NCBI GenBank assembly: GCA_937139365.1
Contig: CAKZPT010000019.1
Span: 1-59,956 of the forward strand
Source of the DNA: an uncultured bacterium
Lineage (GTDB): Bacteria; Verrucomicrobiota; Kiritimatiellia; PWTM01
Direction: 5' to 3'
DNA: 59,956 bases
Positions within the stretch are counted from its first letter, which is position 1, and every line of letters begins with the position of its first letter. Below the pieces are notes generated by a model. That model worked only from the letters and a program-made list of their open reading frames with translations, made no database searches and was not told where the DNA came from. Positions 239 to 42,102 of this stretch are shown here, in pieces. The translations under genes were made by a program, and so were the position numbers.

Positions 239-517
239 GTTGCCTCCATTCGTTCGCGACCAGCCGGATTTAACCTTGCTGGCCCAGGATTGTCGAGCGC
301 GACCGGCACTAAGCACGCGCGTCGGACGACTCAGGGAGTTTGTCTGGCGCTCGCGTTTGTCGCGCACCGGCCCTGGTGAGAACCTGCTCCGCCTCCGATC
401 ACAGGATCTCGTGAGGGAAGCGGCCGGTTCGCGCCGCGGTCAGCCGACAAGAAGCTGACACCGGCCGCTGCGGGAGGCGAGCGGGCCTGCGGGGCTCGTC
501 CAGCCGGCGCAATTCAA

Positions 518-1079
518 TCAGGCACCGTACCAGGCAGCCGCCATCTTGCGAGCCTCCCGGAGGGCCGCGGAGAAGCCCATGAACTGGAATTCCTGTCGGG
601 CCAGGCTCATGCCGTGGTCCCAGCCGGCCATCGGCCCTTCGTACCGGCCGCCGGAGGTCATGAGGATTAGGGCTCGCCGCCCGGCCATCAGGCCCCTGAA
701 TCCCTCCGGCCCGAGATCCCCACGTCACGCCTTTCAGCATCACTGCATCGAACCACGCCTTCACAGTGGCCGGCAGGGAGAAGTTGTACATCGGCGTCGC
801 CAATACAACGTCGTCTGCGGCGGCAAGCTGCCGGGCCAGCCGGCGAAAGGGCTCGAGTGCGCGCGCTGGCTCGGGGCCGAGTACAGCCCCCGCGTGATGC
901 CCCTCGAAGTAGGCGCGCACGCTGTCGGGCATGAAGAGCAGCGGCGGATCTCTCGTCAGGTCGATCTCTTCAATGGCCGCGGAACCTGTCGCGGCCCGAA
1001 ACGCACCGTACAGCGTCCGGGTTGCCGACGCCTCGCCGCGGGGAAAGTAACAGACGGCCAGGACCTTTCGTTGGCTCAT
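518..1079 (-). pseudogene. FMN-dependent NADH azoreductase, frameshifted
   Basis: This is a flavodoxin-fold quinone/azo reductase of the AzoR family (FMN-dependent, NADH-using, cytoplasmic). From ATG 1079 it reads MSQRKVLAVCYFPRGEAS, the FMN phosphate loop, then TPMYNFSLPATVKAWFDAV and MLKGVTW, which are family hallmarks. After codon 120 or so the frame changes at a C4 run on the plus strand (718-721). In the other frame the protein continues GPEGFRGLMAGRRALILM, SGGRYEG and a normal C-terminus, stopping with TGA at 518-520. The total of 562 nt is one base over a codon multiple, so a single extra base explains the break. Either a recent pseudogene or a homopolymer error fits. The restored protein would be about 186 residues, near the usual 200. 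Confidence 0.75.
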
Positions 1080-1444
1080 TCCTGGTTGTTCTCCTGTGCA
1101 ACTGGGCAACTGACGGCGGAATCGGTCTGCGTCAACCCAATGGCTGGCATTTGTCCGGAGAACCGATCCATCGTCAAGCCCATCGGCATCCTCCCGCCTG
1201 CCCCGCCCAGAATGTGAGCCAAAATGGGGACAGGCACGATTTCGTTTTTGATGAAGAAGTGCTTGCGCCAATACGACCCCGGTGCGGACATTGGGGCGGA
1301 TCCGGATGTCAAGAACCACATCGGCCCTGCCAGCGTCCGGCACTGGGCAGAAGGTACTCCCGTGCGCCGGCGCCGTCGCGGCCTTCGGCCATCGCACCTT
1401 CACGGCCGACTAGACGAAGGGGCGGATGAACGGCCCGCAGCCTC
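1080..1444. other. Stretch with no gene recognised
   Basis: These 365 bases lie between the azoreductase start and the GH95 relic. Short open frames on both strands match no family I know and have no plausible ribosome binding site. The one notable word is GGGGACAGGCAC near 1228, a motif that from memory occurs as a repeated word in many bacterial genomes, sometimes near REP-associated transposases. A single copy here proves nothing. Confidence 0.4.
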
Positions 1445-2474: not shown

Positions 2475-3566
2475 TCAGCCAAGCCGGACCGGCATCACCA
2501 CATACAAGAACGGCTCGTCGCCTTTAATCACCGCGGGGCTCGTCTCGTCCGTCAGTTCGAGCGTGATCTCGTCCGAAACCAGGTATTTGAGCGGATCCAT
2601 TAAATATGCCGGATTGAAAGAGATCACCATCTCGCGGCCCGAGTATTTCGCCGGCATCTGCTCCTGCGCCTCGCCGATGTCCGGGTCCGAAAGGGTCACT
2701 ATCAAGCCGTCTTTCGAAAGGTTAACTTTGGCCGACGTTCCCCGCTGGCCCATCACCAGCGACACGCGGCGCAGAACATTCAGGAACAGCTCCCGGGACA
2801 ACGTTGCGCCAATCTCCGATTTACCGGGAATCACCTGGCGATAGTTGGGATACTTCCCCTCGATCAGAGTGGTCATCACCGTCACGCTGCCCGCATCCAG
2901 CACCATCATCTTTGGGGTGGCGGATATCGTGGCGACGCCCTCCCCCTCCAAAATCGAGATGATCTCGTGTACCGCGCGACTCGGAACAACGAGGTTGAGG
3001 TTCTCCCGGGCGCCGTCCACCTCCTGCTCCACCAACGCCAGACGCCGCCCGTCGGTGGCCACGACGCTGAGCCGGTTATCCTGAAGCTCCAGGTAGACAC
3101 CCGTCAACACCTCGCGGGAAACGTCGCTCGATGTCGCATACGCCGTCTTCTCGAGCATGGAGCGGAGGACCTTTTTCTCTATCGTCAGCGTTTTCGGGTT
3201 GGCGATCTTCGGAGGCTCCGGGAAATCTTCGGCCGAAATTCCGTTCAACCGGAACAACGCAGCGCCGCACGCTAAATGGACCGATCCAGCCGAACGCGTT
3301 GTGATCTCGACCTCAACTTCTGGAAGTTCGCGGGCGATTGCCAGCAACCGTTTCGCGTCCAGCGTGATGGCACCTTCCTCTTCCACGGTGGCGGCCAGCA
3401 AGGCCCGCACGGTAATGCTGAGGTCGCTGGCGGTTACGTACAGCGATTGCCCCCGCGCCTCTAGTAACAGGTTGGAGAGGATCGGGAGCGTGGAGCGTGT
3501 GGCCACGGCCGGAGCCACGCTCGACAGAGCGCCCACAAGGTCATCCTTCAGAACCTTCAGCTTCAT
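2475..3566 (-). CDS. dnaN: DNA polymerase III beta sliding clamp
   Basis: DnaN is the ring-shaped processivity clamp that tethers replicative polymerase to DNA and binds MutS, ligase and Hda-type partners. The 363-residue protein has the normal length and the three repeated clamp domains. Recognisable blocks are [43 protein letters not shown] at about 165-176 and the C-terminal YVVMPVRL, which every beta clamp ends with. I chose ATG 3566 over a GTG nine bases upstream because GGAG lies 8 bases before the ATG. dnaA is not next door: upstream is a 255-bp spacer and then the 3' end of a giant exported protein. The spacer carries DnaA-box-like words, so clamp expression may be linked to DnaA. Confidence 0.97.
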
Positions 3567-3575
3567 GTCCGTCAC

Positions 3576-3830
3576 TCCGGGTGGTCCTTTTGGGGAAGAC
3601 TAACTATCACCACCGTTCCCGTCAGTATGCCTGTGGACAACGCGGCCGGCAAGACCCAGTCAAATCGATTCTCCGTGGAAAAGACCTGTGGGAGGTTGTG
3701 GAGGAGGTTGTGGAGGAACATGTGAACGGCCGCGCACGCAGTTCGTGTCCGGGTATGCACGACGCGTTGTTCTGCGGAGAACTGCGGGGCCGTCCACAGC
3801 CGGATGGCTGTAGTTGTGGACAACCGCGAA
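3576..3830. promoter_or_regulatory. DnaA-box cluster upstream of dnaN, candidate origin or DnaA-regulated promoter
   Basis: This spacer holds several words close to the DnaA box (TTATCCACA; TTGTCCACA is a common high-GC form). TGTGGACAA is at 3632-3640 and 3815-3823, CGTGGAAAA at 3674-3682, TGTGGGAGG at 3687-3695, TGTGGAGGA at 3697-3705 and 3709-3717, and CCGTCCACA in the opposite orientation at 3790-3798. Two are single-mismatch boxes and the rest are weaker. The bases just before dnaN (3596-3612) are relatively AT-rich, but no long unwinding element is obvious. Origins next to dnaN are common in bacteria, so this may be oriC or part of it. The alternative is a DnaA-titrating or autoregulatory region for dnaN. 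Confidence 0.5.
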
Positions 3831-6800
3831 CTATTTTTTGGGCGGGGTGACCTCGCGAATGACGGCGCCCAGGTCCTCGCTGAGAACGAGCACCGCAAGG
3901 CGCTCCGCGCGGGCGAGGGTCGGATCCTGGATAGACGCATAGTCGAAGCGCCCTCGCAGGTCCGTGTAGCCGTCTTTGTAAAACTTGACCTGTTTGTTGG
4001 GGAGGCGGGCGTAGACCTTTACGTAGGCGCCGGGGATGGGCGCCAGCGTGTCGGCGTGGGTGACGAGCAGCTGCCCGAAGGCTTCGATCAGGTGGACGCG
4101 AAGTGTGTTCGGGTAGTAGGCCTGCGTGCGGCGGAGGTTGTCGGCGACGGCTTCGACGATGAGGTTTTTCTTGAGGTCCTCGGGGAGATCTACGGTGATC
4201 GTCGTGCGTCCGGCCGGAAGGTCCACGGTCCTGGTGAAGGCAGGGCGAACGTAGACGAACGTGTCGGCGGTATCCTGGAGGAAGGGGTTGCGGGAGAAGA
4301 GAAATTCGATGTCGGTCGGGTAGAAGTTAAGAACGCAGGACTGGAGGTTGCGGTAGTCGATGCGGACGCGGCCGGCTTCGACGTGAATTTCGATCACGGG
4401 CTCCGTGGAGGCGAGCGCGTCCTGCTGGAGGGGGGCGCTGTCCACGGTGTCCGGACGGGCGGCGGGAGCGCCGCGAATCTCGTCGAGCTGAGCCAGCACC
4501 GCGGCGAACCTCGCGCGCCAGCGGGGGACCGGATGGTCGCGGTACGCCGCGGCGGTGGTCCGCGCGGTGGCGATGTCGCGCTGCCGGAGGGCGAGATGGC
4601 AGCGCAGGTAGTCGTACTGGATTTTCTCGGCGATGTTGTTTCGCTCGACGCGGCCGAACCATTTCAGGGCGTCCTCGACGCGGTCCTGGAGGGCCAGGTA
4701 GTAGGCAACGGCAAGGTGGTCCTCCGGGTTCAGCGAGGCCTTGTAGGCAAGCACGCGCAGGAACTCGTGGTACTGATGGCGGAATTCCGCATTGTGGATC
4801 CGGTGGCGTCCACCGACCGGGTGGGCGCGAGGCACGATCATCGGGTCGTATTCAAGGTGCTGGTAGGTGCGACGGCGGACTGGGTCGAGCGTGAGGAGCG
4901 GGCTATCGAGGACCGGGCCGCAGGCAGTGGCGAGGGGACTGTGGGCGAGGAAGGCGCGTATGCGCGGCGGGTCGTTGTGAAGAATCGCATAGGACCAGAG
5001 CGTGGGATCGAACGCCCGGCGGTCTTCGAGCAGCTCGATGGCCCGCACGTAAAAGTCCCTCTCGCGGCATCGCCAAGCGATCTCGGAAAGGGTGATGCGG
5101 TGAAGGTTGGCGTCGCGGAGGAAGGCCAGGACCTGGTCGGGAGTGCTGTTTTGGGAGATCCAGGCCCATGACGTGGTGTCCTGGCGTTCGGGACGGCTGA
5201 CCACGCGAAAGAAGGTGGGGAGGGCGCGCGAGGTGGCAACGCCGCCCTGCGCAAGGGCCGCCGGATGGTGAGTGAACTCGCCCGTCTCGGGGAAGTAGAA
5301 ATAGTATTCCATGGTGCGGGTTTCGTACGGCTCGAGCGCGAGGTGAACGCCGCGGGTGGGCAGGCCCGACTGGAGTGGAACGCTGCCCTGGGGGATCTGC
5401 AGGAGGACCTGGACGTACTGGCGGTTGCCGGTGGGATTGGTCAGGACGACTCGGGCTCCGTAGGGGACGCCTGGCTGGAAGTCGCCGGTGACGTACCTTT
5501 CGTAGCGCTCGTTGCCCTCATAGAGCCAGGGGTCGTCGGCGCGGAAGAAGTTTTGCGCGACGAGGACCGAGCCGGCCCGCTCGGCGGCGGCGGCCGGCGC
5601 GACCTGGCGGAGGAAGAGGAGCATGGGGCCGGCGGCCTCAATCGAGACCGATGGGGGTCGGGAGACGACCTTGTGCGGGGCGGCCTCGAACGGAAGATCG
5701 AGCGCGGCCACGGCGAAGATGATCTCCGTGAAGTTCCGATGCGCGGAGAGGAAGTTTGTGGAGAGGAACGACTCCGAACCTGCGTGCGCAGCGTAGTCGG
5801 CCCAGAATGGCGAGGGACGGACAAGAGTCGCGGTCTGCTGGGCGATGGGCAGCTTGTAGTAGTTGTTTTCGGCGAGTTCGCGGGGCATATCCGGGGCACG
5901 GAAGAAGGGTCGCGAAGCGGCACGCCGCTCGGAGATGTCAACGTCCGTGAGGAAGTCCCCGGCATCCTTGTCGGCGGGAGGCAAGGTGCCGTCGACATTC
6001 TGGCGCCGTTGTTTCGCAGCCCGATCCATTTTTTCCTGGTCTGGGGGTGGGGCGGCTAGGGCGTTGGCGGCCGCTTCGAATGCGGCCGCGGGGGAAGGTG
6101 CTGCTGCTGAACTGGGCGCCCCACCGCCGGCGCGGAGAGCGAGCGCCGAAACCTGGGGCGCAGCCGGCTCAGCCGTCGCGGCCAAGCCTCTGAGGGTCTC
6201 GCCGCCCTCCAATACCCCCGCCTGGAGCGCGGTGTCGAAGAGGCGATGGAATTCGACGACGTCGGTAGGGAGAAGGTCCGCTTGGTCGCGGATGTCGCGG
6301 ACAATGGCCTCACGGCGGTCGGGCAGGCGCTGGGCGAGTAGGATCTTTTCGACGACGTTGAGCTGTCGGTATTCCCACGGCTCCAGCCAGATGTCGGGGT
6401 TCTCCCCGAGGAGCCAGCAGTCGAGGAATGTCTTGTCGCGTTTGTTGGCCAAGTAGGGGGCGACGACCTCCTTGAAGAAGACAGGGTCCTTGCGGAAGAG
6501 GAAGAAGTTGAGTTCGTGGCAGGCGAACTTGGAGTAGAGGTCCAGCTTTTCGGTCGCCGGCAGGGAGGCCCATCGCGGGATGAACGAGAAATCCCGCAAG
6601 GCTGGCTGATTGGTGGCGAGGGTGGAGAGGAGTTGCCATGCCCTCGCGACCGTGTCCACGATTTCCATGCGGGCCATCGAGGCGTCAGGGATTTCGAGGG
6701 TTCGGCCGGCGGCGAGGGCGACGGCGGTTTTGACCTCGGCGAACGGCCGGTTGGGGTCGAGCGGCGCCGCGAGCCGGAGGTTGCGGAGGGCGGGTTTGGG

Positions 6801-9800
6801 GTCGCCTAGCGCAGCGGTAGCGCGAACGGCGTGGCAGGGATCTAGGGCGACGGCGACCAGGAAAGCGGCGTGGCCGAGTTGTGCGCGGGGGATGACGATG
6901 CGTCCGTCGGCGTCGGGACGCAGGTTGGGCAGGACGGCGGAGGGCGTGGCGAGGAAGTCGAGCGTCGGGAAATCAGCGACCGGTACGGCGACTCCCAAGG
7001 CGGCCCCCTCGACGGCCGCGACGGCGCCATGGGCGGCCTGGCGGCCAACGTAGGCGGTGCCCGCCTGCAGGACTTCGCTCTCCGGCCGTGTCTCCCGGAG
7101 GACCCACGGGTTCAGGAGCAGGCCAGGCCGCTCGAGGATGACGGCGGGGTACTTCTGCGCCGTACGGCGGTCGAGGATGTAGCGGTACTCGTCGCCGACC
7201 TTGCGTCCGGATTCGTAGAACGTTTGAGGGAGAGTCCAGCGCTGCTCGACGAGGGAAGGCCAGCCCGCGGGGGCGAGGACATCAGCCGGGTCGGCGGGCG
7301 GCAGGTACCGGAGGCCATAGACGTGGACGCGCGCGAAGGGCCCGGCATGCCGCAGACGTACAACGACCGTGTCGGGGCCGGGTTCGATCGCGGCGATCTG
7401 GAGGGGTTCCAGCCGCGGCCGCTCGAGCGCGCGGCGAGAGGAGACGACGATGTGGTCTATGGGCTCACCTCGGGTGACGCGGACCGGGATCTCGACCCCA
7501 CGAGAGCGGATCTGGAGAGAGTAGTCGCCCGGCTCGAGGTCACGGAGCTCCAGATCGCCGTCGGTCACGGACATCCGGTCGGCGCAGTCGCGGACGAAGA
7601 CCCCACCACGCACCTCGAGGAGGGAGAAGTCGTGTTTGGGGTCTCGGATCGAGGGATCGGGCAGCGGCAGGCGCAGCGGGCGGCCGGCCGGGCCGTGCAG
7701 AGCCGACGGCCACCAGCAGTCGGAACGCAGGACCGTCCAGGTGCGTTCAACGCCCGGCGGGGCATGGGCGGCACGCCATTCGGCGGACTTCGGATTGGGC
7801 GGTCCGTCGGTCGGCCAGTCGACCGGCCGGGGCTCGGGCGTGAGGGAGAATCGGACGATGTCCGTCAGCGGGCCCAGCGCAACGCGGCCGTGTTCGTCGG
7901 TGCGAAGCTGGACGTGGATCGGCTGCTGGAAATCGCGATGGTAGAAGGCGCCGGCCACTGTGGCGCCGGCGACCGGTTCGCCGTTTTTGCCGCGGAGTTC
8001 GACCACGTAACCTTCAGGGGTCAGAAGGGCATGCAGACAGCGGGTGGCGAGCGTGGTGTGCATCTGGTTGACGCGCCACACCCCGGTCGCGGAGAGGTCG
8101 TCGTGGCGGCGGCGTGAGACGTTGCGCACACGCCCCTCGAGTCGCGCCGTCACGGCGACAATCTGCTCGGGCACGGCGAACTCAACAACGGTTTCCTCGC
8201 GGTCGGTCAGCGTCAGTCCGGGGTACTCCCGCTCCGTGGAGATGCCGCGGATGTCGGTCACCGTGAGGACGAGGCGCGGCTGCTCGAGGAGTTTAAGGTC
8301 GACCGGGTGGCCGTTGATCCGGAGGATGGGTCGCAACAGCAGGCGGGCCGTGGCCTCAGGAAGGAGGGACTCGCGGTCGAGATGCATGTTGGCAGCCAGC
8401 TCGTAGACCTCCGCCTCGTGTCGAATTTGGGTTAGCGAGGCGAACGAGCCGGCGCGGAGAATGACGTTTTCGGTCTTCGGCTCGGTGGTGAACGGAATGA
8501 CGATGCGACCGTCCGGTCCGGCGGCGAACTCCCGTCCTCCAATCCAGGCGCGGGCATCCGGCAGGCGGCGGTTGGACTCGTCGAAGACCGTTAGCGCCTG
8601 GCCGGCGGCGGTCATGGACTGGACGGCGCCGAGGCGGCCCTTTTGCACGAGGGCGCGGCTGCTGCGGCCGTTGCCGATGAACTCGATCACCCATACGCCG
8701 CGACCGGTCAGGTTGGGGAACTCGAAGGTGCGCTGGATCCGCTGCTCCGCAGGTGCTTGGAGCCGGTGGCGTTGCTGGTCGGTGGGGACGAGCCCGTCGA
8801 GGTTGATGGCGAGGTTCAGTGAGCGCCCGGTGTCGCGGTAGTAGTTGAAGGTGTCGATCTCGTAGATGTTGATCTGGAGGTCCTCAACGTTCTTCACCCA
8901 GAGCGAGAGGCGAACGGGGTCCTCGGGGCGGAGAACATCCGGGTTGTGGGGAAGGAATTCGAGGTCCACACGCTCCCTCAGCGCCCGGTACTCGTCGGGG
9001 GTGAGAAGATTGGCCCATTGCGACGGTTCGCCGATGCCGTGGACGATTTTGGATTCGGCGAAGACCTTCTTCAGGTAATCGTCGCGTATCCACGTCTGAA
9101 ACTCGGAGTAGTCGGCCGCGTCCCGCAGAAAATAAAGGAGGTAATCGCGCACGAGGGGCTCGTCCATGCTGATCGGGGGCAAGGCGATCAGCTTCGGATC
9201 GGCGGCTAGGTCGGCGAGATGCTCGGGACGTGCGACGGACTCCAGGAGCGGACGTGCGACGTAGGGCACCCGCCGCGGTAGTTTGAGGTACTCGATGAAC
9301 CGCGCGCGGTTGCGGACGCCGACGCGCGTATCGTGCAAAAGTCGGTTATACAACACATTAGCCTTCAATGTGTTATGTGCATCATCCAGCTGGCTGACGA
9401 ACGCCCATACGCGCTCGTAGTAGGCCTCGCGGGCGGGCGCCTCGGTGGCCAGATCGGTCTCGTTGTCCGGTACGAGCCGGGCCAGGTAGGCCGACACGAA
9501 GGCCGCTTCGTTCCGGAGGGCTGGGCGTTTCTGCGCGAGGTCGTCGAGTTGCGCGAGGGTGAGCTGACGGTGGATCGGGAGGTGCCCGAACGGCGGACTG
9601 TCTTGGACGGCGAGGTCCGCGAGGATCATGTCGACCAGTCCGGGGATGTCGGGCCGGGTTGCGCGACGGAGGAAGTCCCGGCGTTGCTCGGGTGTCAACT
9701 CTCGACCCGCGAGGCGGAAGAGGCCGACGTCGGAGAATGGTTCGAGGGATCGCGGCGAGTTTTTCAGGCGTTCGGCGGCGACGGTGTCGAACGCGATGCG

Positions 9801-10205
9801 GGCGGGATCGAGTCGGGTGGGCAGGTCCGCCCTCTGCTCCGGGGTGCGGCGCGTGTGGGAGAAGTTGAGCCGGAGCTGCTCGCGGAGGTACTTGAGGGTT
9901 GCCTGGGGGTCGCGGCCGTAATCGAGGAGGGCCTGGCGGTTGAGGAGCTCGCGCGCGGCCGGCACCACTTGGCCGTTCCGAGCGCGGGCCCAGGCGTCGA
10001 GCGTTCGTTGAAAGCGTTCGCGCTGGCCGGTGTTCTGCGCATGGAGGGCGGTGTAGAAGAAGAAGTCGTCGGTGCCGGGCACGAGTTCCCTGAGCGCGGC
10101 CTCGCGGTCGTCGGCGAGGCTGAAGGTCTCGATGTAGCCGATCTCCTGCGCGGCGGCGGCGACGGCTGTGAAGGGGAGGACGAGCAGCACGAGGTTTCTG
10201 TTCAT
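3831..10205 (-). CDS. Giant exported macroglobulin-like protein (2124 aa)
   Basis: This very large exported protein has a signal peptide at residues 1-20 (hydrophobic, AVAAAA before QE). The central half is built from beta-rich repeats resembling alpha-2-macroglobulin MG domains. Examples are VRLSLWVKNVEDLQINIYEI (about 430-450), a carboxypeptidase-like ELRGKNGEPVAGATVAGAF and the C-terminal PIPGAYVKVYARLPNKQVKF followed by DGYTDLRGRFDYAS (about 2055-2095). No thioester motif (CGEQ or CLEQ) is visible, so it could not trap proteases by the classical mechanism. Residues about 1365-1400 form an Ala/Pro-rich linker, and a helical TPR-like region follows at about 1800-1930. A likely role is a periplasmic or surface structural protein or protease trap, but this is inference. 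The 160-bp gap to the sulfatase upstream suggests an independent promoter. Confidence 0.85.
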   Translation of the reverse strand: MNRNLVLLVLPFTAVAAAAQEIGYIETFSLADDREAALRELVPGTDDFFFYTALHAQNTGQRERFQRTLDAWARARNGQVVPAARELLNRQALLDYGRDPQATLKYLREQLRLNFSHTRRTPEQRADLPTRLDPARIAFDTVAAERLKNSPRSLEPFSDVGLFRLAGRELTPEQRRDFLRRATRPDIPGLVDMILADLAVQDSPPFGHLPIHRQLTLAQLDDLAQKRPALRNEAAFVSAYLARLVPDNETDLATEAPAREAYYERVWAFVSQLDDAHNTLKANVLYNRLLHDTRVGVRNRARFIEYLKLPRRVPYVARPLLESVARPEHLADLAADPKLIALPPISMDEPLVRDYLLYFLRDAADYSEFQTWIRDDYLKKVFAESKIVHGIGEPSQWANLLTPDEYRALRERVDLEFLPHNPDVLRPEDPVRLSLWVKNVEDLQINIYEIDTFNYYRDTGRSLNLAINLDGLVPTDQQRHRLQAPAEQRIQRTFEFPNLTGRGVWVIEFIGNGRSSRALVQKGRLGAVQSMTAAGQALTVFDESNRRLPDARAWIGGREFAAGPDGRIVIPFTTEPKTENVILRAGSFASLTQIRHEAEVYELAANMHLDRESLLPEATARLLLRPILRINGHPVDLKLLEQPRLVLTVTDIRGISTEREYPGLTLTDREETVVEFAVPEQIVAVTARLEGRVRNVSRRRHDDLSATGVWRVNQMHTTLATRCLHALLTPEGYVVELRGKNGEPVAGATVAGAFYHRDFQQPIHVQLRTDEHGRVALGPLTDIVRFSLTPEPRPVDWPTDGPPNPKSAEWRAAHAPPGVERTWTVLRSDCWWPSALHGPAGRPLRLPLPDPSIRDPKHDFSLLEVRGGVFVRDCADRMSVTDGDLELRDLEPGDYSLQIRSRGVEIPVRVTRGEPIDHIVVSSRRALERPRLEPLQIAAIEPGPDTVVVRLRHAGPFARVHVYGLRYLPPADPADVLAPAGWPSLVEQRWTLPQTFYESGRKVGDEYRYILDRRTAQKYPAVILERPGLLLNPWVLRETRPESEVLQAGTAYVGRQAAHGAVAAVEGAALGVAVPVADFPTLDFLATPSAVLPNLRPDADGRIVIPRAQLGHAAFLVAVALDPCHAVRATAALGDPKPALRNLRLAAPLDPNRPFAEVKTAVALAAGRTLEIPDASMARMEIVDTVARAWQLLSTLATNQPALRDFSFIPRWASLPATEKLDLYSKFACHELNFFLFRKDPVFFKEVVAPYLANKRDKTFLDCWLLGENPDIWLEPWEYRQLNVVEKILLAQRLPDRREAIVRDIRDQADLLPTDVVEFHRLFDTALQAGVLEGGETLRGLAATAEPAAPQVSALALRAGGGAPSSAAAPSPAAAFEAAANALAAPPPDQEKMDRAAKQRRQNVDGTLPPADKDAGDFLTDVDISERRAASRPFFRAPDMPRELAENNYYKLPIAQQTATLVRPSPFWADYAAHAGSESFLSTNFLSAHRNFTEIIFAVAALDLPFEAAPHKVVSRPPSVSIEAAGPMLLFLRQVAPAAAAERAGSVLVAQNFFRADDPWLYEGNERYERYVTGDFQPGVPYGARVVLTNPTGNRQYVQVLLQIPQGSVPLQSGLPTRGVHLALEPYETRTMEYYFYFPETGEFTHHPAALAQGGVATSRALPTFFRVVSRPERQDTTSWAWISQNSTPDQVLAFLRDANLHRITLSEIAWRCRERDFYVRAIELLEDRRAFDPTLWSYAILHNDPPRIRAFLAHSPLATACGPVLDSPLLTLDPVRRRTYQHLEYDPMIVPRAHPVGGRHRIHNAEFRHQYHEFLRVLAYKASLNPEDHLAVAYYLALQDRVEDALKWFGRVERNNIAEKIQYDYLRCHLALRQRDIATARTTAAAYRDHPVPRWRARFAAVLAQLDEIRGAPAARPDTVDSAPLQQDALASTEPVIEIHVEAGRVRIDYRNLQSCVLNFYPTDIEFLFSRNPFLQDTADTFVYVRPAFTRTVDLPAGRTTITVDLPEDLKKNLIVEAVADNLRRTQAYYPNTLRVHLIEAFGQLLVTHADTLAPIPGAYVKVYARLPNKQVKFYKDGYTDLRGRFDYASIQDPTLARAERLAVLVLSEDLGAVIREVTPPKK
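9352..9374. repeat. AT-rich inverted repeat inside the giant gene
   Basis: AACACATT (9352-9359) and AATGTGTT (9367-9374) are perfect 8-bp arms with a 7-base loop. They sit in an AT-rich patch (about 9334-9380) of an otherwise GC-rich reading frame. The encoded residues (AHNTLKANVLYNRLL) read normally, so this may be chance. Confidence 0.4.
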
Positions 10206-37930: not shown

Positions 37931-39301
37931 ATGAGCGATTGGACCATCGCGGCGATTGCGACGGCGCCGGGCGAAGGCGGAGTGGCGATCGTACGGCTCT
38001 CCGGTCCGGAGGCCTTGCAGATGGCGGACGCGATGTTCCGGTGTGCGGGTCGCCGGCCATCCGAGCGCCCCAGCCACACCGTCGTGCACGGGCATGTGGT
38101 CGACGCACACGGTGTCGACCTTGACGAGGCGCTGTTGCTCATCATGCGCGCGCCGCACACATACACGGGAGAGGACGTCGTCGAGTTCCAGTGCCACGGC
38201 GGGTCGCGACCCGCTGCCATGATCCTGGCCAGGGCGGTCGAGGTCGGCGCGCGCCCGGCGCAGCCTGGCGAATTCACGCGCAGGGCGTTCCTCAACGGAC
38301 GACTCGACCTCACGCAGGCCGAGGCCGTGTTGGATCTGGTCAAGGCCCAGACCGATCGGGCCGCCCTGGCGGCCCTTGCGCAGCTCGAGGGACGGCTTGG
38401 GCAAAGGATCGCGAAGATCTACGAAAAAATCCTTGACGCGGCCGCAATGCTTCAGGCCAGCCTCGATTTTCCCGAAGAGGATGACGTGCCCTCCGATGTC
38501 GCTGGAGCGGTCCGGGAAGTGTTCATGGAATGCCGCGAAGAGTGTCTTGGGCTGTTGAAATCGGCAAGGCGCGGCCGAATTCTCCGAAACGGCCTTCGCG
38601 TCGTCCTTTGCGGGCGGCCCAATTCCGGCAAGTCCACACTGTTTAACGTATTGGTGGGCAAGGAACGAGCCATCGTATCGCCCCACCCTGGCACAACCCG
38701 GGACAGCATCGAGGAATGGCTGAACTGGGACGGCATCCCTGTGTGCCTCGTCGACACTGCCGGCCTTCGCGAGTCGGACTGTGCGATCGAGCGGGAAGGA
38801 GTGCGAAGAGCGAAGGAATCCGGAAAAACAGCCGACGTAATTTTATATCTTATTGAGGGACAATCACTACCGAATATATCCGACGCTGATTTTCTTTCTG
38901 ACTGTGACCCTTCCGCAACGCTGGTCTTGGCAACGAAGGGCGACTTGGGTTGTGCCCCAGGCTGGGAGGAACAGATCCCAAACTTCAGGATCCTCAAGGT
39001 ATCTGCCTTCGATTCTGGGTGCGACGAACGCGTGGTGGAGGCTGTCTTGAGTCTCATTGGGCGTGGCGTGGCATTCGACACTGAATTTGCGGTCTCCGAG
39101 CGGCATTCATGGATGCTTAATTCGTGCGTTGAGGCGCTTGGGAATGCTATTTTGGCTCTGGATACCTGTGGCGAACAGGGTCCGAGCCTCGCCGCCTGCC
39201 ATGCTGAGGCGGCTGCGGAGTCCGTCGGCAGAATTGTAGGAAGGGTCTACGACCAGGATCTCCTTGACTCAATTTTCTCGAGGTTCTGCATCGGAAAATG
39301 A
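37931..39301 (+). CDS. mnmE: tRNA modification GTPase MnmE
   Basis: With MnmG, MnmE installs the carboxymethylaminomethyl group on wobble U34 of tRNAs. ATG 37931 begins [20 protein letters not shown]. Seen are the folate-binding N-domain ([36 protein letters not shown]), helices and the inserted G domain with GRPNSGKS at about 228, [19 protein letters not shown] and DTAGLRESD. The protein ends FCIGK (452-456), with the catalytic Cys. The base-specificity motif reads ATKGDLG rather than NKxD, an unusual change. From about 38830 the coding sequence becomes visibly less GC-rich than the first two thirds. The stop overlaps the mnmG start (ATGA). Confidence 0.96.
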
Positions 39302-41190
39302 ACGCTTGTGACGTTGCGGTAATTGGGGGCGGCCACGCGGGTATCGAGGCCGCTCTCGCATCTGCCAGGCTCGGGGCTGCGACAATTCTGATCACCATCG
39401 CTCGCTCGACCATCGGAAGAATGTCGTGCAACCCATCTATAGGTGGTATGGCGAAGTCGCATATCGTGCACGAACTCGAGGCGCTCGGCGGCGAAATGGC
39501 CAGAGCCGCGGATGCCACCGCGATCCACTACAAGACCCTCAACACGAGGAAGGGGCCGGCTGTCAGGGCAACGAGATGCCAATGCGACAAGCGGCTCTAT
39601 CCGAGGTACATGCAGTCGGTTCTGGCCTCGCAGGCGAATCTGAAAATCATCGAGGGAGAAGCAGTCGGTCTGGTATCTCCGCATGGAAGAATTCGCGGGG
39701 TCAGGCTGAGAGACAACCGCCTTGTGGAATGCCAATGCGTAGTCGTATGTGGTGGTACGTTTCTTAATTCGTCCGTCTATATCGGGAAACAATCCTTCCA
39801 ATGCGGACGGGCCGGCGAGTCGGCGTCAGTCGGGCTATCCGACGACCTAGTCTCTCTCGGCCATGTCAGGGGCAGGCTGAAGACCGGAACCCCGCCCAGA
39901 ATCCATCGTGACACAGTTGATTATACAAAGGTCGCGGTCCAGCCATCCGAGTTTCCTCCACCGTTCTTCTCGGAAATGGCGAGGGAAATATGGAAAGAGT
40001 TCCACGTGGAACACAAAGATTTCGCGGCCGCGCTGAGGTTCCACGTGGAACACTTGGTGGCGGATCTGATTCCGTGGCCGCCAGGCACTGCACCAATCCC
40101 GTGCTTTACTACACATACCACTGAGGAAACCGCTGCGATTGTGCGCGGCAACCTGGCCAATAGCTCGTTATATGGTGGGATGATCAAAGGGACTGGGGTC
40201 AGGTATTGCCCGTCCATAGAAGACAAATTCGTCAAGTTTCCAGACAAGGCATCCCATCATATTTTCCTAGAGCTAGAAAGTAGAAACGGAGTCAGGATAT
40301 ATCCGAACGGCACTTCGAATTCATTTCCGGCAGACGTACAGTTGGCGATGGTGCGAACCATTCCAGGATTGGGAAAAGCGGAGATCGTCAGGCCAGGCTA
40401 TGCGATCGAGTACGATTTCTTCGATCCCAGGGACCTTAAACCAAGTCTCGAATCTAAGCTCGTCGACGGCCTTTTTCTTGCAGGTCAGGTTAATGGAACA
40501 ACCGGATACGAAGAAGCTGCAGGGCAGGGATTCATAGCCGGAGTCAACGCCGCCAGAAAGATACGCGGAGAGGCTCCTCTCATTCTCAGAAGAGACCAAG
40601 CGTATATCGGGGTTCTGATCGACGATTTAGTGACGAAGGGCGTGGACGAGCCTTACCGCATGTTCACATCGAGGGCGGAGCACCGCCTTCTGCTTCGGCA
40701 GGACAATGCAGCATACCGTCTCATGGCGTCCGCCAGGGAAATTGGTCTGGTGCCGCAAAGCAGGCTGAGCCGGGTCGCTGAATCAGAACGCAGAATCGTC
40801 GCAGAAATATCGAGGCTCGCTCGGACAAAATCAGGGGATACTACCCTGTTTTCCATACTCTCGAGGCCCGGCGTTCGCTACCAGGACATATCCGGCATTG
40901 ATGCTGGACTGACCGCGGAAGAAATGGAGCAGGTGGAATTGGAAGCGAAATATTCAGGATACATAGGGATAGAGTCCAAGAGAGCGGAACGGATGCGCGA
41001 AATGGAGTCGGTCCAGATCCCTGCGAATATAGCGTACGAGTCCATCCGAGCTCTCCGACGGGAATCGATCGAAAAGCTCAGCAGGATACGGCCTTCAACT
41101 TTGGGTATGGCCGCCAGGATACCTGGAGTCAGTCCGGCGGACGTGGCCATTCTTGAGGTTTTTATAAGACGTTTGTCATCAAATACTTAG
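39298..41190 (+). CDS. mnmG: tRNA uridine-5-carboxymethylaminomethyl synthase MnmG (GidA)
   Basis: MnmG is the FAD- and NADH-dependent partner of MnmE. The 630 residues begin [20 protein letters not shown] (FAD site GGGHAG at 10-15). They contain [77 protein letters not shown] and the C-terminal [14 protein letters not shown]. Between FPPPFFSEM and PCFTTHT lies an insert (about 228-265) that has no match in the E. coli protein. It carries two FHVEH peptides (235-239 and 248-252), each encoded by a perfect parS-like palindrome. Base composition and codons (AGG, AGA, ATA) are less GC-rich than in surrounding genes. The downstream neighbour is rluD, convergent by 12 bp, not the usual rsmG-parA-parB. 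Confidence 0.97.
39999..40012. promoter_or_regulatory. parS-like ParB-binding site 1
   Basis: GTTCCACGTGGAAC is a perfect 14-bp palindrome matching the chromosomal parS consensus (TGTTTCACGTGAAACA in Bacillus; GTTCCACGTGGAAC-like in GC-rich groups). It lies inside mnmG in the frame that reads F-H-V-E-H. Such sites normally lie near the replication origin and load ParB for chromosome segregation. Confidence 0.85.
40038..40051. promoter_or_regulatory. parS-like ParB-binding site 2
   Basis: This is a second perfect GTTCCACGTGGAAC, 39 bp (13 codons) after the first and in the same reading frame, again encoding F-H-V-E-H. Identity extends two bases on the 3' side (AC), giving a shared 16-bp word. 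The bases between the sites differ from the flanks, so this is not a simple tandem duplication of a longer unit. Confidence 0.85.
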
Positions 41191-42102
41191 CCCAAGTTCT
41201 GACATGATTTTCCTCATGTCGTTCGGGATCTCGGCCTCTAACTCGATGGGTTCACCGTTGACCGGATGAAGAAACTTCAGCCGGTGGGCATGCAACATCG
41301 GGCGGGCAATACCCAGCCGTTCGCCCTCCTGTCTCCGTGAGCCGTAAATTGGATCGCCTAGGATCGGATGGCCAATGTGGGTCATATGAACCCGGATTTG
41401 ATGAGTTCGACCGGTGAGAATGAACACCCGGACGAGACTGGCCTCCTCGCGGCAGGAGACAACTTCGTAGCGCGTGACGGCGTACCGTCCGCGATGGGTT
41501 CGAGCGGTCATTTTCTGCCGGTGGGATGCGCTGCGGCCGATGAGCGTCTCGATCGTTCCGCTGGGCGGCTCCAGCCGGCCACGCACGATCGCCAAGTATT
41601 CCTTTTCGACCTGCCGGCCCTTGAATAGCTCCGTCATGCCCCGGTGCGCGCGTTCGGTTTTCGCCACCACCAGCAAGCCGCTGGTGCCCTTGTCGAGCCG
41701 GTGGACGATGCCTGGCCTGGATTCGCCGCCGATCCCGCGTACGTTGGGACGGTGATAGAGGAGCGCGTGAACCAGCGTCGCATCCTCATGTCCGGCGGCG
41801 GGATGAACGACCAGGCCCGCCGGCTTGTCGATCGCCATGAGTTCGGTGTCTTCGTAGATTATTTTGATGGGCAATGCAATGGGCGTCAGGCCCGGAGGGC
41901 GCGGCGAAGGCTCCTCCCACTCAATCAGGTCGCCGGCAGCTACCTCCGTCCGGCATTTCGACACTGAACGACCGTTCACGCGGACGTGGCCCGCCTCGAT
42001 TAAAGCCTGCCAGCGGCTTCGCGAATGTTCTGGCGCAAGCCGGGCCAGCGCCGCGTCGAGGCGTCCGCCGGCATCATCCGTTGGTACGGTCCGCTGGCCC
42101 AT
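41179..42102 (-). CDS. rluD: RluD-type 23S rRNA/tRNA pseudouridine synthase
   Basis: RluA-family synthase with an N-terminal S4 RNA-binding domain ([31 protein letters not shown]). The catalytic domain has [20 protein letters not shown], the catalytic-Asp motif [19 protein letters not shown] (about 139) and [20 protein letters not shown]. The S4 domain and the [11 protein letters not shown] form point to RluD, which modifies helix 69 of 23S rRNA, although RluB/RluC-like specificity cannot be excluded. ATG 42102 gives 307 residues. A GTG 12 bases upstream is possible. The start lies 29 bp inside lgt, so the two genes are translationally linked. The 3' end overlaps mnmG by 12 bp, convergent. 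Confidence 0.92.

Follow-up and report, generated by a model that had tools for sequence, protein, structure and literature searches.

Chromosomal origins that lie beside dnaN while dnaA is encoded elsewhere have been described in the cyanobacteria. In Synechococcus elongatus PCC 7942 and Cyanothece ATCC 51142, oriC is located next to dnaN, dnaA is encoded apart from it, and there are few boxes; in S. elongatus, the GC-skew shift is also found at dnaN (PMC7198777, PMC4674748). A different arrangement is seen in Bacillus subtilis and in Clostridioides difficile (oriC2/incC), in which boxes, a GC linker, trio-like repeats, and AT-rich DNA reside between dnaA and dnaN (PMC6669920, PMC7561715). 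The DnaA-trio itself is 3'-GAT-5' and takes the form 5'-YTR-3' in Helicobacter pylori (PMC8287927, PMC8235120). A literature search on origins in the Kiritimatiellae found no described one.

The stretch of DNA analyzed here (the window; 59,956 nucleotides) comprises the initial 60 kb of contig C19 in the draft genome (2.82 Mb in 117 contigs) of an uncultured member of this class. A preliminary description had proposed a candidate origin in it and placed the window in the origin domain, a proposal that is now supported by GC skew, box density, and parS sites. The 255-bp spacer at 3576..3830 is likely, with a probability of roughly 0.8, to be the chromosomal oriC or to contain its core, having descended from a dnaA-dnaN intergenic origin and been left with dnaN when dnaA moved. 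It is very probably an ordinary kind of origin, notable for the departure of dnaA in this genus.

As had been described, the spacer directly precedes dnaN (2475..3575, minus strand), which encodes the beta clamp (TIGR00663, 291.7 bits against a cut-off of 137.65, E-value 7e-87; Pfam clamp domains) and whose closest named relatives are mostly Verrucomicrobia bins with 40-43% identity. On the other side of the spacer, a gene for a 2,124-aa protein (3831..10205, minus strand), with a strongly C-rich coding strand, takes the place of dnaA in all four genus members. This protein always adjoins the dnaN spacer and is 46-49% identical across the genus. A Pfam scan of it found no family at E <= 0.001 (the best was CarboxypepD_reg at 0.005), and an assignment as alpha-2-macroglobulin-like was dropped since it had no Pfam support. 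Beyond dnaN, about 2.4 kb (1-2474) hold no convincing intact genes as judged from translations, which show an apparently broken FMN-dependent reductase (399-1403, minus strand) and, where the contig ends, a sulfatase-like fragment. Scanning the window for Rfam families and tRNAs gave no matches.

The spacer holds a non-coding cluster of DnaA boxes that stands above background. A scan for TTRTCCACA with up to two mismatches gave matches at 3632 (exact), 3674, 3697, 3709, 3773, 3790, and 3814/3815 (exact). The last of these was counted on both strands, so the eight matches represent about seven separate sites. The eight are two exact copies of TTGTCCACA and six further matches, among which is the word that overlaps 3815 and reads it in reverse. 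The earlier count of at least seven DnaA-box-like words in 255 bp thus holds. The proximal exact box (3632..3640, minus strand) is 57-65 bp upstream of dnaN, at the place where the genus and its class relatives have a conserved dnaN-proximal box, and the second (3815..3823, minus strand) is at the distal end. Two copies of TGTGGACAA had been placed at the ends of the spacer; both are present, at 3632 and 3815, but they are set 57 bp and 7-8 bp in from those ends. Between the exact boxes are three box-like words with two mismatches each, TTTTCCACG (3674..3682, minus strand), TTCTCCGCA (3773..3781, minus strand), and CCGTCCACA (3790..3798, plus strand), along with tandem weak boxes, TCCTCCACA / TCCTCCACA, spaced 12 bp start to start (3697..3717, minus strand).

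One could consider the cluster to be chance or low-complexity repetition (GGAGGTTGTGGA occurs twice) in an ordinary spacer, especially as the word at 3709 repeats the one at 3697 exactly, in a 12-bp tandem duplication, so that the two are not independent. The statistics make this extremely improbable. None of 1,000 dinucleotide shuffles of the spacer reached eight matches (the mean was 1.33), and boxes with at most one mismatch gave p = 0.008 in dinucleotide shuffles. The spacer has more matches than any other 255-bp stretch of the window (8 vs about 5 at best elsewhere). Its density of 8.0 per 255 bp, compared to a mean of 0.6, is the highest of the listed spacers (26 in the window and 16 on the dnaA contig), so the equal word density in other spacers that would have counted against an origin was not seen. 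Throughout the 2.82-Mb genome, the exact TTRTCCACA word occurs 15 times, compared to 10 for a reversed control pattern, and the sole close pair among the 15 is the one in the dnaN spacer, 183 bp apart. A head-to-tail exact double-box pattern had no match in this genome and is uninformative.

The enrichment extends across species. In 44 relatives compared for the architecture upstream of dnaN, the density of boxes with at most one mismatch is 4.47 per kb over the last 300 bp upstream of dnaN and 0.28 per kb further up (a 16-fold difference); the spacings they favor are 63-65 and 12 bp. A box pair at 12 or 13 bp is present at the matching place in congeners and other relatives, including the family. 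It is one of two conserved blocks in a four-way alignment of the genus, the other being CTTGCC...CACRNNCATACT. Congeners G001 and G002 have three boxes each in the spacer (shuffle p about 0.05-0.06). A close exact-box pair elsewhere in G001, on its contig C1, was set aside as chance since it is inside a dehydratase-like coding frame.

The preliminary description had also reported dnaA as missing. This is true of the window but not of the genome, in which contig C98 has a full-length, single-copy dnaA, flanked by murA and by a cpa/tad-like pilus cluster named from translations. In all five other genera of the family (G004-G008), dnaA is directly upstream of dnaN, and the two genes are neighbors in most tested class relatives as well, whereas they are on separate contigs in all four genomes of this genus (G000-G003). 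Within the family, the separation is specific to this genus. The exception among the class relatives is G037, in which dnaA and dnaN are also on different contigs (C3 and C31 of that assembly) and there is no skew switch at dnaN. Given G037, the separation may have happened more than once. In domain IV of DnaA, both in the protein encoded on C98 and in class relatives, the box-reading motif of most class members is FG(K/R)NHATV, which is one residue shorter than the FGGRDHTTV of B. subtilis DnaA and has D changed to N and T to A. These changes may be connected with the class having boxes of the TTATTCACA type.

The gene order in the relatives suggests how the separation could have come about. 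In G006, the order is dnaN-dnaA-murA-lgt-rluA-(mnmG)-mnmE, while in the genome studied here, mnmE-mnmG-rluA-lgt starts 34 kb from dnaN and is reversed relative to G006. The tad cluster is about 4 kb from dnaN in G003 and follows dnaA in G000-G002. The ancestral state would have been a dnaA-dnaN intergenic origin, as in the present sister genera. A rearrangement would then have parted dnaA, together with murA, from dnaN, with the chromosome breaking on the dnaA side of the boxes, so that dnaN retained the array of boxes, the putative site of unwinding, and the point at which the skew switches. As a presumed history, the gene orders would be accounted for by an inversion with one of its breakpoints in the dnaA-dnaN gap and by further breaks later on.

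GC skew places a switch at the same spacer. The cumulative minimum of the window is at 3674, and in all eight testable family genomes, with or without an adjacent dnaA, the minimum is within 200 bp of the dnaN 5' end. A minimum elsewhere had been named as evidence that would speak against the candidate, and it was not what was found. The stretches tested in the family ranged from 9 to 227 kb, being the 60-kb window alone for this genome and 119 and 227 kb for congeners. Outside the family, just 6 of 10 genomes have their minimum within 4 kb of dnaN, and in G018, a nearly closed class relative, a 20-point sampling of the skew was irregular and did not settle the origin.

The switch is not explained by gene direction, because dnaN and its same-strand upstream neighbor have opposite skew. 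The dnaN coding strand is G-rich at third positions in nine of nine genomes, and the neighbor is C-rich at third positions in seven of nine. The opposition is seen in 8/9 genomes over all positions and in 7/9 at third positions, where the exceptions are G004 and G008; G006 and G007 are weak on one side. Gene direction and skew are correlated (r = 0.49), with genes favoring the G-rich strand, which is thus taken to be the leading strand, and a minus-to-plus switch to be an origin. A search for 16S rRNA, intended for the direction of rRNA, found none in four drafts.

The best-assembled congener, G002, gives the widest view of the skew. On its dnaN contig (227 kb), the 165 kb to the left of dnaN are almost all negative, in genes and intergenic DNA. 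To the right, the total skew is positive, and that of third positions and intergenic DNA is about zero to positive (intergenic skew is -0.104 on the left and only +0.014 on the right). In G000 and G001, the skew on this side is positive for 10-20 kb and then fades. On the sampled contigs of G002, no clear minus-to-plus switch was found other than the one at dnaN. There is one strong plus-to-minus switch, at about 150-200 kb of contig C3, which is terminus-like, and the other sampled contigs are near-uniform except for weak sign changes on C4 and C14.

These data bear on the idea that the working origin went with dnaA, in which case the murA-dnaA spacer (contig C98, about 38206-38550) would be oriC and the dnaN spacer a relic. 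Upstream of dnaA, a box pair 11 bp apart and a third box are conserved in G001 and G002, the pair being reverse-oriented and the third box about 55 bp further on; the genome studied here has the pair, with one box exact, and there are related boxes in G006. However, no minus-to-plus switch was found at dnaA in G002, G001, or G000, and on the 552-kb G002 contig that carries dnaA, the skew is negative or near zero. The murA-dnaA spacer also has no trio-like repeat, and boxes are present there even where dnaA adjoins dnaN, as in G006; to account for them, autoregulation is enough, as is one half of a bipartite origin. A dnaA-side origin is therefore quite improbable, and the boxes there are probably involved in dnaA autoregulation or are the other half of an ancestral two-part origin.

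The neighbors of the spacer are those typical of an origin: dnaN, mnmE-mnmG, and parS. The parS sites reported earlier at a distance of 36 kb are indeed present, with TTCCACGTGGAA cores at 40000 and 40039. Both are inside an mnmG-like ORF (39298..41190, plus strand) that is located between mnmE and rluA; its name is based on the sequence and on the position following mnmE. The sites themselves, AGTTCCACGTGGAACA (39998..40013, plus strand) and GGTTCCACGTGGAACA (40037..40052, plus strand), are 39 bp apart. A pair is also found in G001 and in G002, where it is within mnmG, at the same 39-bp spacing and in G006 at 45 bp. The pair is 36 kb from the dnaN spacer here and 42 kb from the skew minimum in G002, and no further parS cores were found in the roughly 1.2 Mb of G002 scanned. 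The mnmE, mnmG, and rluA genes (37931-41964) have a G+C content of 55-61% in a window of 68%; that of mnmG is also low in G001 and G002 and less so in G006. A second origin in the AT-rich stretch at 39-41 kb was considered and rejected, since this is a coding frame at the mnmG position and the skew is unchanged there.

There is one parB in the genome. In G002, unusually, parB is on a different contig (C3, at 201 kb) than the parS sites (C23). The place of parB near the plus-to-minus switch prompted consideration of a reversed convention, with a C-rich leading strand, which was ruled out by the gene bias and by the presence of parS on the dnaN contig.

A recurrent pattern in the 44 relatives, about 50-90 bp upstream of dnaN, is a box, then a linker of 4 nt, and then ATAATA repeats resembling DnaA-trios. 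In 12 of the 44 loci, a short linker and at least three NTA units come after the box, a combination found in none of 42 control stretches and in 0.6% of shuffles; on the opposite strand, a box with at least three NTA units is found in 1 of 44. On sequence grounds, this pattern matches the published DnaA-trio idea (PMC8287927, PMC8235120). That the trio and the 5'-TTATCCACA-3' reading of the box are on opposite strands is our own interpretation of the 5'-tail scaffolds in those papers and is not stated there.

The equivalent site in the window is TTGTCCACA-GGC-ATACTG (3623-3640). Its GGC linker and ATACTG (3623..3631, minus strand) appear to be a remnant of a GC linker and trio array with two trios, and the block CACRNNCATACT is kept in four genus members. 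The published rule for a BUS calls for a box (at most two mismatches) and then at least three trios with a conserved middle base within 16 nt; on the dnaN-facing strand, this genome has two trios, and two congeners also fall short of three. A three-unit trio match on the opposite strand overlaps a box and is at chance level (14% of shuffles). Next to the site are the 50 bp with the highest AT content in the spacer (3585..3634). They lie just past the proximal box on the dnaN side and are a candidate unwinding element, with 50% AT, the 97.6th percentile of a window that is 32% AT. Across the class, the AT excess peaks at -60 to -20 of dnaN.

The same region has a possible dnaN promoter, TTGCCG-N17-CATACT (3624..3652, minus strand), with the proximal DnaA box in its spacer; CTTGCC and CATACT are kept in 4/4 congeners. 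The spacer may thus double as a DnaA-sensitive dnaN promoter. It could even be nothing but that, with DnaA acting as a transcription factor and replication beginning elsewhere. CTTGCC-N17-CATACT with the box inside it is the best conserved block among the four congeners, dnaN needs a promoter of its own once dnaA is gone, and the trio array is reduced. However, a promoter would account neither for the skew switch at dnaN in 8/8 family genomes nor for the nearby parS, and it would leave unexplained why there are distal boxes and a tandem pair here and an AT peak and trio-like repeats in the relatives. The promoter match is also below the threshold of a consensus promoter scan, which did not find it. 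On balance, a promoter without an origin is unlikely.

If the spacer is the origin, DnaA encoded elsewhere would bind the exact boxes and the 12-bp-spaced weak pair. The DnaA oligomer would grow towards dnaN and open the AT-richer stretch at about -60 to -10, after which helicases would be loaded and forks would leave in both directions. With the proximal box inside the likely promoter, DnaA would probably tune dnaN transcription too. A more specific and tentative version is that an inversion or a similar break split a two-sided origin, with the upstream boxes staying at dnaA and the opening site at dnaN, where it now works with about two trios and the 12-bp weak-box tandem under a distantly encoded DnaA. 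If true, this would be a recent, datable case of an origin uncoupling from its initiator gene.

A likely origin can now be placed in a lineage in which no described one was found. Within one genus, the origin and the initiator gene part, and the skew switch, the boxes, and parS remain at dnaN; the long-standing pairing of oriC and dnaA thereby becomes open to study over a short evolutionary time. For genomes of this genus, dnaN rather than dnaA is suggested as the right start point.

Compared to the known systems, the spacer resembles the dnaN-side oriC of cyanobacteria in adjoining dnaN, in having dnaA elsewhere, in its few boxes, and, as far as S. elongatus is concerned, in the skew shift at dnaN, but the phylum is unrelated and the cyanobacterial boxes are TTTTCCACA. 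The separation here is also recent and, within the family, confined to one genus, with the sister genera keeping the ancestral dnaA-dnaN order. The dnaA-dnaN intergenic origin of the Firmicutes has the same arrangement as that of the class relatives; the differences are that dnaA is gone in this genus and that the trio run is about two units. As for the BUS unwinding module (PMC8287927), the relatives share its box, short GC linker, and ATA repeats at a fixed place, whereas the genome studied here is under the three-trio minimum on the dnaN-facing strand.
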